NCBI GenBank assembly: GCA_003604985.1
Contig: QZIW01000087.1
Coordinates: 1 to 50,149 of the forward strand
DNA: 50,149 bases
From: Ammonifex sp.
GTDB taxonomy: Bacteria; Bacillota; Desulfotomaculia; Desulfotomaculales; Ammonificaceae
Direction of reading: 5' to 3'
The position numbers and the translations under genes are program-made. Positions 10,954 to 31,808 of the stretch are shown here, piece after piece (the stretch's first letter is position 1; the number at the start of each line of letters is the position of its first letter). The notes beneath the pieces were generated by a model, which searched no databases, was not told where the DNA came from, and saw nothing but the letters and a program-made list of their open reading frames with translations.

Positions 10954-11517
10954 TTGTTTCTTTCGTTTAAAACGAGAAAGAGGTTTATTAAGGCGGTCTT
11001 TTGGGTTCTGGTCGTTGCTTTAGGCGTCGGGCTCGTAGGGTCTTCCGTGATTTGGACATCCCTCCCGGACGAACCCGTGCAGGAAACACCGGAGAACCAG
11101 GATAACCCGGTTGCTTCTCAAATGGAAAAGGCCGAAAAGCAAAAAGATATTGCAGCCCTTCTTTCCATAGCCGGGCGCTGTGCCGAAAGCGGCGACGTCC
11201 AAAACGCGGTGCGGGCGTATCAAAAGATTTTAAATGTGGCCCCGGAAAATTCAGCGGCACGGTTGGGCCTTGTAGAGCAGTATTTTATGGCGGACAATTA
11301 TCCGGAGGCGCTTTTGCAGGTGGAAGCTATTCTGAAAAAGGCGCCCGACCACCAGAAGGCGCTTTACTACCGCGGACTTATCCGTGCCTACGGTAGCGAG
11401 GATTATCCCGGGGCTGTCGCGGACCTGAAGCGTTTCGTCTCTCTGGCCAAGACCGGCCGGGAGGTGGAAGAGGCCCGGGATCTAATCAGAGAGTGGTCCG
11501 CGAAAACAAAGAATTAG
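10954..11517 (+). CDS. membrane-anchored TPR protein
   Basis: A 187 aa protein with an N-terminal membrane anchor (about 12-35), a charged linker and two to three tetratricopeptide repeats at about residues 65-170 (repeat cores such as GDVQNAVRAYQKIL and DNYPEALLQVEAIL). TPR modules mediate protein contacts, so this is probably a scaffold on the outer face of the membrane. The start is TTG with AGGGGG upstream. It lies between a cell-wall hydrolase and a membrane protease, which fits an envelope role. No enzyme signature is visible. Confidence 0.75.
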   Translation: MFLSFKTRKRFIKAVFWVLVVALGVGLVGSSVIWTSLPDEPVQETPENQDNPVASQMEKAEKQKDIAALLSIAGRCAESGDVQNAVRAYQKILNVAPENSAARLGLVEQYFMADNYPEALLQVEAILKKAPDHQKALYYRGLIRAYGSEDYPGAVADLKRFVSLAKTGREVEEARDLIREWSAKTKN

Positions 11518-28980: not shown

Positions 28981-28981
28981 T

Positions 28982-29001
28982 TAGGAAGAGTGTTTCAAAA
29001 C
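28982..29001. repeat. possible solo end of the MITE family
   Basis: TA followed by GGAAGAGTGTTTCAAAAC, which differs at only one or two positions from the outer end of the 199-bp elements at 29201 and 30433. No opposite end is nearby, so this may be a decayed copy. Confidence 0.35.
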
Positions 29002-29083
29002 TCCAAAACCGTGAGAAACAAGTTCAGTGCTGAAGAAGAGGTAAACAAAAGTTAAAAGGAACTCTCAGAGACCGGCAAAATCA

Positions 29084-29172
29084 GTGGTCGGTCGTCAGTC
29101 GTCTGTCGTAAGAATCCAAAAACTCCCTTCTCTTCTCTCCGACGTCCGACATCCGAATTCTGACGTCTGTTA
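29084..29172. repeat. GTC/GAC periodic intergenic repeat (family B, copy 2)
   Basis: Three tandem 7-bp units GTCGGTC, GTCAGTC and GTCTGTC (29087-29107), then after 35 bp a block GACGTCCGACATCCG and TGACGTCTG (29142-29170). The order and spacing match 6521-6631. Confidence 0.6.
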
Positions 29173-29200
29173 TGTCAGGGTAGTTTGCAGCGGTTTCCTA

Positions 29201-29399
29201 GGAGGCCGTTGCAAAACTGCGCCTGACTTTGTCAGGCTTCCCGTCCGGTGCTCACGTACTACCACGTACGCTCCGCGCCGCCCGGCTTCGCCTTCCGCGT
29301 CATGCTTGTTTTTCGCGGCCTCCAGGGTATCTTCTAAGTTTCACTGTCGAAAACCGTTGGGTATCTTTTTACCGATTAATTTGTTTTGCAACACTCTCC
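29201..29399. mobile_element. MITE-like element, copy 1
   Basis: A 199-bp element with imperfect terminal inverted repeats: GGAGGCCGTTGCAAAAC at the left and, reverse-complemented, GGAGAGTGTTGCAAAAC at the right. It is flanked on both sides by TA, as for IS630/mariner-type targets. It has no coding capacity of its own. The inner part contains CACGTACTACCACGTAC and other small palindromes. Copy 2 at 30433-30631 has exactly the same length, is inverted relative to this one and is about 87% identical by eye. Confidence 0.8.
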
Positions 29400-29436
29400 T
29401 AAAGGTGGGGCGTTGCGTTCTGGAAATAAGTTTTAG

Positions 29437-29465
29437 CCGGCCATGAGAGGAGAGCCGGATTTTTT
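29437..29465 (+). terminator. hairpin with T run just before tagA
   Basis: CCGGC (29437-29441) pairs with GCCGG (29454-29458) around a 12-nt loop, followed by ATTTTTT. It lies 18 bp before the tagA start and could stop read-through from emrB or act as an attenuator. Confidence 0.5.
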
Positions 29466-29482
29466 GGCGAAATTTTAGGCTC

Positions 29483-30220
29483 ATGGATCGCCTCAAGTTC
29501 TTAGGGCTCGACATCGACCCGGTAACTACTCAGGAAGCAACGGTCCGGGTTGCGGCACTGGTTGCCCAAGGAGGAATGCACCAGGTTGTTACGTTAAACC
29601 CGGAATACCTGTACCGTGCCCAGACCGAGCGAGACCTGGGGCAGATTGTGGGGCAAGCGGCGCTGGTTACCGTCGACGGAATAGGCCTTGTGTGGGCTTT
29701 GCGACTAAGCGGTCTTCCGGTTCCCGAAAGGGTAACTGGAATTGATCTTATGTTGGATATCTGCCGCCGGGCCGTCTTTGAGGGATGGCGGGTGTTCTTT
29801 CTGGGGGGCAGGCCGGGCGTCGCCGACGAGGCAGCAGCCCGTCTTTTGCAAGACCTTCCGGGCTTAAGAATTGTTGGCACGCACCATGGTTATTTTTCAC
29901 TGGAAGAGGAACCGGCGGTGCTTGCCAAGGTTAAATCTGCAGCACCGCAGGTCCTTTTTGTCGGACTCGGGGCACCGCGGCAAGAACGATGGATACATGC
30001 AAACCGCCAAACCTTGGCCCCGCTGGTGGCGATAGGTGTAGGCGGCAGCTTTGACGTGGTTTCCGGACGCGTAAAACGGGCACCCGTTTGGATGCGGCGT
30101 CTGGGGCTCGAATGGTTGGGAAGGCTATTACGAGAGCCGTGGCGTTGGCGGCGCATGTTGGTCTTGCCCCTTTTCGCCCTTTACGTTTTGCGGGCAAAGC
30201 TGTTCGGTCCGCCAAAATAG
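29483..30220 (+). CDS. tagA: WecG/TagA/CpsF family N-acetylmannosaminyltransferase
   Basis: A GT26-family glycosyltransferase of 245 aa that adds N-acetylmannosamine to a lipid-linked GlcNAc at the membrane face, the second step of wall teichoic acid or similar polymers. Motifs: TLNPEYLYRA, VDGIGLVWALR (acidic catalytic region), FFLGGRPGVADEAA and FVGLGAPRQERWIHAN with GVGGSFDVVSGRVKRAP. Only the ATG start is supported by homology; the Shine-Dalgarno is weak. It is the sole gene between the two inverted MITE copies. It probably uses the product of the TagO-like enzyme encoded at 39.8 kb. Confidence 0.93.
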   Translation: MDRLKFLGLDIDPVTTQEATVRVAALVAQGGMHQVVTLNPEYLYRAQTERDLGQIVGQAALVTVDGIGLVWALRLSGLPVPERVTGIDLMLDICRRAVFEGWRVFFLGGRPGVADEAAARLLQDLPGLRIVGTHHGYFSLEEEPAVLAKVKSAAPQVLFVGLGAPRQERWIHANRQTLAPLVAIGVGGSFDVVSGRVKRAPVWMRRLGLEWLGRLLREPWRWRRMLVLPLFALYVLRAKLFGPPK

Positions 30221-30432
30221 ACCCGGCGCGGATCGCGCGGGCCCGGCCGGCGGAAGAGATAGGCCGTGATACTATCTGGTAAGGCGCAACTGTAGCCATT
30301 ACTTACGGTTAGCTTTATAGTATTCGAGGAAAGGATAACACCGCGTGAAGGCTTGTGTGCGGGAGTCTGCCGGGACTTAAAACGATTTCCACTGTCCAAA
30401 GAGGCGTGTGGTAAGGGGGAAGACATTGCCCA

Positions 30433-30631
30433 GAAGAGTGTTGCAAAACAAGTTAACCGGTAGAAAGAAACCCATCGGTTTTGGGCAGTCAAACTTAAGA
30501 AAGGCCCCGGAGCCCGCGAAAAACAAGCATGGCGCGGAAGGCGAAGCCGGACGGCGCGGAGCGTACATGGTAGTACGTGAGCACCGGACGGCGAGCCTGA
30601 CAAAGCCAGGCGTAGTTTTGCAGCGGTCTCC
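30433..30631. mobile_element. MITE-like element, copy 2, fused to the csaB 5' end
   Basis: A 199-bp element, the inverted counterpart of copy 1. GAAGAGTGTTGCAAAAC forms the left end and GTTTTGCAGCGGTCTCC the right end. The flanking dinucleotide reads CA on both sides rather than TA, which is a decayed or different target duplication. The right boundary falls within a few bases of the first conserved codons of CsaB. From the bases before it (30221-30432) I see no gene. Confidence 0.78.
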
Positions 30632-31808
30632 CAGGGTAGTCGTTTCGGGGTATTACGGCTTCGGCAATTGCGGCGACGAAGCGATGCTCTTTGCCATCGT
30701 CACCCAGCTCAAAAAAAGGATGCCGGCACTCGAAGTGGTGGTTTTGTCTCGCCGACCGGAGGACACGGCACGGGATTTTGGGGTGGAGGCCATCCCCCGC
30801 CGGGATTTCAGGTTGATCTGGCGGGAACTGAAAAAAGCTGATCTGCTTCTAAGCGGCGGCGGCAGCTTGTTCCAGGATGTGACCAGCCCCCGCAACGTTT
30901 TTTACTACGCTGCAATTATCATCATGGCCAAGCTGCTGGGCAGGAGAATCTGCCTTTACGGCCAGGGTTTGGGCCCTTTAAAACGCCGTATCAGCAGGTA
31001 TCTTGTTCGGCGGGTGGCGAATTGGGCGGACGTTATCACCCTTCGTGACGAAGGTTCGCTGGAAGAGCTGAGGGCGCTTGGGGTTGGGCGGCGGGTTTTT
31101 GTGACAACCGATCCGGTCCTCGGGCTTGAAGCGGAATCGGCCGACCGGGAGCGTGGGCGCGCGCTTCTTGCCGCTGCCGGCATTGAAACAGGGCCTGAAA
31201 GCAGCACGCCGGCACCCGGTGATGAGGCCGGCAGGCGAAGGGAACAGCAACAGGCCACGGCCACTCGCAGCCCTCTGGCCGGGGTGTCGTTAAGACCATG
31301 GCCGCACCTCCGGCAGTCCGTAACCGCGGTGGCACAGACGGCGGATCGAATGAAGGCCCAGGGGTGGCAAGTGGTTCTTATCCCACTCCAGGCAAGCGAT
31401 CTCCAAATTCTGAACCAAGTCCGGGAAACGATGCGGCAGCCGGCCGTGATTCTGGAAAATATCAGGGGTTTTCGCGATCTGATGGCTGTCATGGCCCACC
31501 TGGATTTCGGCTTGGGAATGCGGCTGCACTTTTTGATTTTTGCGGCGTTGTTCGGCGTACCGGCCGTTGGGCTGGGATATGACCCCAAAGTCGGGCGGTT
31601 TATGGACCAGATTGGGTTACCGGCAATTCCCCTGGCCGAGGTGAACGAAGAAGTGTTAAGCCGCACCGCCGGGGGCCTTCTCGACAGTCTCGACGCCACG
31701 CGCGCGCAGGTTGGGGAGCGGGTTCGCCAACTTAAGGCGCGCGCCGAAGCAAATGCTGATTTAGTCGCTGACCTTCTGAGTAAGACAGGAAGGCGCGGTA
31801 TTTCATGA
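30567..31808 (+). CDS. csaB: polysaccharide pyruvyl transferase CsaB
   Basis: Adds pyruvate ketals from PEP to the secondary cell-wall polymer, making the ligand for S-layer homology domains. The conserved protein begins at about 30636 (VVVSGYYGFGNCGDEAML) and includes LLLSGGGSLFQD, YGQGLGPL and a C-terminal FGLGMRLHFLIFA. A low-complexity Pro/Gln/Arg-rich insert sits at about 31190-31260. The reading frame upstream is MITE sequence back to GTG 30408. I place the start at ATG 30567, which has GGAG 5 nt upstream inside the MITE; TTG 30618 is the other option. So the N-terminus is transposon-derived. Confidence 0.88.
   Translation: MVVREHRTASLTKPGVVLQRSPRVVVSGYYGFGNCGDEAMLFAIVTQLKKRMPALEVVVLSRRPEDTARDFGVEAIPRRDFRLIWRELKKADLLLSGGGSLFQDVTSPRNVFYYAAIIIMAKLLGRRICLYGQGLGPLKRRISRYLVRRVANWADVITLRDEGSLEELRALGVGRRVFVTTDPVLGLEAESADRERGRALLAAAGIETGPESSTPAPGDEAGRRREQQQATATRSPLAGVSLRPWPHLRQSVTAVAQTADRMKAQGWQVVLIPLQASDLQILNQVRETMRQPAVILENIRGFRDLMAVMAHLDFGLGMRLHFLIFAALFGVPAVGLGYDPKVGRFMDQIGLPAIPLAEVNEEVLSRTAGGLLDSLDATRAQVGERVRQLKARAEANADLVADLLSKTGRRGIS

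Follow-up and report, generated by a model that had tools for sequence, protein, structure and literature searches.

Background

The closest described counterparts of the repeats studied here are the miniature inverted-repeat elements (MITEs) of IS1182-family IS, with which they share terminal repeats, a CTAG-like 4-bp target and, within the genus, an IS1182 transposase gene bearing the same ends. They differ in that the ends alone match; the interior of our elements, a conserved rod-like hairpin, bears no relation to the IS. The BOX/RUP-type elements of pneumococcus, which are moved in trans by an IS, offer a second parallel. Like ours, they are short, modular and non-autonomous repeats, clustered and nested in one another (PMC10969869), but with a different sequence, different ends and a different transposase family. 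The same review of prokaryotic MITEs leaves IS1182 unmentioned (PMC10969869). In Paracoccus, the functional IS1182 member ISPse1 is bounded by ends of 16 bp and duplicates 4 bp (PMC3281130). Rickettsia palindromic elements (RPE), of ~150-200 bp, lie in frame within protein-coding genes (PMC10969869), as does one copy described below (copy 2), this likeness to RPE being drawn by description alone and from a single in-frame case. Bru-RS1 and Bru-RS2 of Brucella are 103-106 bp palindromic repeats (PMC10800456, PMC3163539), and the hairpin tip of our elements occurs in repeats of the sister genus Ochrobactrum (L134, L189); by description, which is the sole basis of this comparison, Bru-RS are nevertheless IS711 insertion targets and not IS1182-ended elements. 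RIME1 of Sinorhizobium was set aside, as no S. meliloti megaplasmid matched.

Here, we analysed a stretch of 50,149 nucleotides (hereafter the window) from the genome of Ammonifex sp. (G000), a 1.82-Mb draft in 89 contigs estimated to be 73% complete, in which a pair of inverted repeats surrounds a tagA-like gene. An orphan repeat family gains with this analysis a likely engine (IS1182), a measured 4-bp CTAG-like target and an in-gene insertion recent at the scale of the genus. Should the sharing of its hairpin tip with distant bacteria stand, one conserved structural motif, whose partner would be open to experimental search, would connect several palindromic repeat families that have been described separately in distant phyla.

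Three copies around tagA in the window

The inverted pair at 29201-29399 and 30433-30631 is real, with arms 87% complementary in an inverted-repeat search that extended them to 204 nt, 1031 nt apart. The original prediction had described two elements of exactly equal length, with imperfect terminal inverted repeats and TA on either side of copy 1, and these observations held: both copies count 199 nt between their GGAG..CTCC ends, 29199-29217 pairs with 29383-29401 at 84%, and copy 1 is flanked by TA. The flanks of copy 2, on which it was silent, are CA/CA or, taken over 4 bp, CCAG/CCAG.

Counted between its 4-bp target copies, copy 1 spans 197 bp (29202-29398, minus strand; 199 bp in the earlier count), from a CTAG at 29198-29201 to a CTAA at 29399-29402, one change away from CTAG. 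Its R-type terminal repeat GAGGCCGTTGCAAAAC lies at 29202-29217 (plus strand) and its L-type terminal repeat GAGAGTGTTGCAAAAC at 29383-29398 (minus strand), while the rod-like hairpin module occupies 29202-29323 and the conserved hairpin tip GGAGCGTAC-loop-GTACGTGAGCAC 29248-29274, both on the minus strand. Copy 2 (30434-30630, plus strand), also of 197 bp, is enclosed by CCAG at 30430-30433 and 30631-30634, with its hairpin module at 30509-30630 and its tip at 30558-30584, both on the plus strand. Between the two copies lies the tagA-like glycosyltransferase gene (WecG/TagA/CpsF; 29483-30220, plus strand). Copy 2 itself sits at codon 3 of a csaB-like polysaccharide pyruvyl transferase gene (30426-31808, plus strand), predicted to carry an element-encoded N-terminal insertion; this position inside csaB, as opposed to intergenic DNA, had been overlooked.

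A third element of the family, copy 0 (~28985-29197, plus strand), adjoins copy 1 and had likewise gone unnoticed. It was delimited from the sequence, the repeats D1-D3 and the end scan, and carries an L-type end GAAGAGTGTTTCAAAAC and an R-type end GTTTGCAGCGGTTTC, its hairpin middle being swapped for another repeat. The CTAG at 29198-29201 is common to its right end and to the start of copy 1, and a TTAG at 28981-28984 is its likely left target copy according to the 4-bp rule established below.

A dispersed multi-copy family with shared ends

Used as a query, copy 1 gave 19 matches in G000 and was matched in 14 of 60 relatives. The end pattern TAGGAGNNNGNTGCAAAAC, with at most one mismatch, was found 15 times in G000 against none for the reversed control, and 24-39 times in each of G001, G002, G005 and G045 (reversed controls 0-1), placing the element ends far above chance. 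L and R ends were paired at distances of 117-281 nt in 37 end-to-end copies. From left to right, the L end GAGAGTGTTGCAAAAC of an element is followed by a variable linker and then by a hairpin module of ~125 nt, in which the R end GAGACCGCTGCAAAAC forms the 3' strand of the base. The elements thus have the attributes of MITEs, being short, devoid of a transposase gene, bounded by terminal inverted repeats, multi-copy and dispersed, with a target-site duplication and an empty site. The view of a mobile, multi-copy and non-autonomous family with shared ends was confirmed by the copies, the end scan and the empty site.

In several copies the upper hairpin is swapped for other hairpins, such as GGAATTCGC..GCGAATTCC modules, as though hairpins were preferentially acquired at the tip. 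Purine-rich and pyrimidine-rich arms surround GGAATTCGC..GCGAATTCC in G000:C1:44598-44840, in the copies of G000:C36 and C40, and in L347 (G001:C17). Elsewhere the upper hairpin is swapped for degenerate runs like GTCGGTCGTCAGTCGTC / GACGTCCGACATCCG (copy 0, G000:C4:28968-29173 and G000:C21 near 7320), and an insert of this kind turns up again in several copies. An end pair 1.24 kb apart in G001:C17 was rejected as an autonomous element, as what lies inside it is a LysM-type gene bordered by two unrelated fragments.

A 4-bp target-site duplication

Identical 4-mers flank 18 of the 37 end-to-end copies, and eight of these pairs are other than CTAG (CTAT and CTAA twice each; TTAG, CCAG, CGAG and CCGG once each). 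In a permutation test, 18 identical pairs were reached in none of 100,000 permutations, and the eight non-CTAG pairs gave p = 3e-5. The target duplication is 4 bp long with the consensus CTAG, and the TA seen at copy 1 is its core. A first reading as a 2-bp TA duplication gave way to 4 bp once the neighbouring bases matched, since the bases beside TA also agree on both sides. The 4-mers are unequal in the other 19 copies, partly owing to decay: many of these pairs differ by one change, as expected from that process. Of the 37 copies, 22 have TA on either side. The targets contain TA as originally proposed, but a strict TA duplication does not stand, since CCAG, CGAG and CCGG are duplicated too.

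A rod-like hairpin whose tip is found in distant bacteria

Thirty-four modules from the order yielded a consensus rod of 28 pairs, 13 of which show changes on both sides. The covariation of this hairpin was not equalled in any of 500 shuffles, whichever of five measures was used, and slid structures scored far below it. Such covariation is no proof of an RNA role, because template switching in DNA can symmetrise palindromes. Neither the hairpin nor the element had an Rfam match above the gathering score.

The tip, searched as GGAGCGTAC-N3-8-GTACGTGAGCAC in ~85,000 species genomes, was recovered in at least 119 stretches, with ~1 estimated by chance. Among the matches listed, its carriers were Mesorhizobium and other Alphaproteobacteria, Rhizobiales among them, Nitrospirota, Nitrospinota, Paenibacillus, Listeria and other Bacillota; the flanks differ between these groups, and the long hairpins are otherwise unrelated. 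We folded 82 of the listed stretches together with 45 nt of flank at either end. Of these, 80 formed the apical stem, the median number of pairs between arms was 27-31 in all groups but Paenibacillus (12), and the mean z ranged from -1.9 (Paenibacillus) to -6.5 (Alphaproteobacteria). The GC ahead of the searched motif, which the search had not imposed, is invariant in an alignment of 26 sequences. Against plasmids, the window element matched by its tip only, in alphaproteobacterial plasmids, where convergent genes closely flank the hairpins; against phages it had no match, and full-text literature containing the tip sequence amounted to primer coincidences.

The conserved tip is the surprising part of these elements, and its distribution is wide among the matches listed. 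We tentatively propose, as a reading that may well prove wrong, that palindromic mobile elements bearing the tip GCGGAGCGTAC-loop-GTACGTGAGCAC, with its GGA/GA internal loop, form a pan-bacterial superfamily as yet unnamed, the tip being fixed and the stems and ends free to change. This would imply one conserved partner across Pseudomonadota, Nitrospirota and Bacillota, be it a protein of the host, a contact for the transposase or a function at the RNA level.

In ~20 of 61 alphaproteobacterial and other loci (e.g. L119, L121, L141, L162, L185 and L190), the stop codon of an ORF falls exactly at the outer end of the hairpin, which points to insertion at the TAA/TAG of stop codons or to selection for such placement.

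The main rival to a mobile element is that the hairpin module serves mainly as a functional RNA or a terminator, its mobility being incidental. The covariation, the rod fold in several phyla (mean z of ~-4 to -6.5 outside Paenibacillus, among the matches listed) and the module at stop codons in many alphaproteobacterial loci speak for this explanation, which we nonetheless consider unlikely: Rfam holds no match, copies 1 and 2 are oppositely oriented among same-strand genes, and no clear strand preference emerged among same-strand neighbours (8 sense vs 17 antisense, from crude ORF calls), while palindrome correction by template switching can mimic the covariation.

IS1182-type ends and the probable transposase

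We searched eight element-bearing genomes for the Pfam domain DUF772, and one locus, C31 of the congener G001, had element ends on either side of a transposase (530 aa). This IS is intact and 1842 bp long, with ends GAAGAGTGTTGCAAAAG / GGAGAGTGTTGCAAAAG and CTAG on both flanks, and its transposase is an IS1182 equivalog (NCBIfam NF033551, 328.7 bits vs a cut-off of 270). Its right end GGAGAGTGTTGCAAAAG is identical to the element L end at 16 of 17 positions; the element R end is of the same type as the IS end, with four bases different (GACCGC vs GAGTGT). In the genome of the window, contig C84 closes with 96 nt of the left end of this IS, starting at 10993, a position at which a repeat that interrupts assemblies would be expected. 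Four species of the order (G047, G055, G019 and G031) contribute five more IS1182 copies, flanked by CTAG and with ends resembling GGAG(C/A)C(T/C)GTTGCAAAA, and the 4-bp duplication of the element agrees with that published for ISPse1.

Based on the matching IS ends, the CTAG flanks and the likeness to ISPse1, the family was assigned to IS1182 and not to IS630/mariner. It is a real and recently mobile MITE family with IS1182 ends, hence of a known kind. With good confidence, we regard the repeats as IS1182-family miniature inverted-repeat elements with IS1182-type ends, CTAG-like targets and a 4-bp duplication, probably moved in trans. Above chance, element and G001 IS have no internal sequence in common, only their ends, so that the former has IS1182 ends but did not arise from this IS by deletion. 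G002, G005, G026 and G045, all copy-rich, yielded no intact IS1182 relative at E <= 1e-20; it may have been lost from these assemblies, or another transposase may have acted. Judging from sequence, we infer that the elements were moved by the G001-type IS1182 transposase or by a relative since lost. This transposase would probably recognise in trans the ~17-bp L GAGAGTGTTGCAAAAC and R GAGACCGCTGCAAAAC ends, and the elements insert at CTAG-like sites, duplicating 4 bp. Half of each element is the conserved rod-like hairpin, whose right base strand doubles as the right terminal repeat; selection may act on this hairpin as a structure, or strand templating may keep it palindromic.

Two other engines were weighed against an IS1182 transposase. 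A RAYT (Y1) transposase acting on REP-like palindromes could be suspected because the hairpins are long and sit at gene ends, in alphaproteobacteria often between convergent genes, and because Y1 transposases are present in 51 of the 60 relatives. We hold this to be very unlikely, as the hairpin tip was absent from 20 RAYT/Y1 regions of element-bearing genomes, and as Y1 transposition is not expected to involve target duplications or terminal inverted repeats. Slightly less probable still is the IS630/Tc1-mariner transposase duplicating TA of the original prediction, to which TA around copy 1 and around 22 of the 37 copies had lent some appeal: CCAG, CGAG and CCGG are duplications without TA, the bases on either side of TA agree as well in CTAT, CTAA and TTAG and make the duplication 4 bp, and the IS sharing the element ends belongs to IS1182. 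Its expectation of a parent transposase elsewhere was sound in that an IS with the same ends exists, in G001. The search of this genome and its relatives that it had recommended did return further copies, TA-containing targets and such an IS, the departure being a duplication of 4 bp. IS5/IS427 (DUF4096) was also rejected as a partner, being absent from the sampled order save for one sub-threshold match.

Outside the order, IS1182 relatives were present in 16 of 28 tip-bearing genomes, some of them with CTGTT(G)AAAAA-like ends. No match between IS1182 ends and hairpin ends was demonstrated within one tip-bearing genome there, so that the link between IS1182 and the hairpin outside the order is only suggested. 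IS1182 relatives in Nitrospirota and Asticcacaulis (L433, L409 and L410) have flanks complementary to each other (e.g. ggtagggc..gccctact), a hint that their targets are palindromic.

Empty sites and the insertion into csaB

The congener G002 keeps the MFS-tagA-csaB order and has none of the three copies. Its empty site for copy 2 reads TTGCCCAGGATAGTC, vs TTGC-CCAG-[197]-CCAG-GGTAGTC in the window, and the insertion of copy 2 is recent on the scale of the genus. TagA is not the cargo of the inverted pair, because G002 has the gene in place without any copy; that the pair forms a composite element carrying tagA, as two inverted copies around the gene might have indicated, is hardly credible given this same gene order without copies and the target duplication proper to each copy. 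A second probable empty site is GCTCCTAGCC in G027 (C1 ~1162940), vs GCTCCTG[element]TAGCC in G045 (C12:6405-6565); the empty-site alignment of a second G045 copy with G027 was not clean.

Together with its duplication, copy 2 adds 201 bp to csaB, i.e. 67 codons without an in-frame stop, a length divisible by three that kept the gene open. Three of the six frames of copy 2 are open, so an open frame in csaB is unremarkable in itself. In G002, csaB starts at the same TTG (LPRIVISGYYGF); the window gene has this start, then the 67 inserted in-frame residues, then the protein as in G002. From the reading frame, copy 2 most likely adds a 67-residue N-terminal extension to CsaB, or lets translation restart within the element. 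The tip of copy 2 reads GGAGCGTACATG at 30558-30569, a Shine-Dalgarno-like GGAG followed after five nucleotides by an ATG in frame with csaB, which is a possible candidate for an internal start of this gene.
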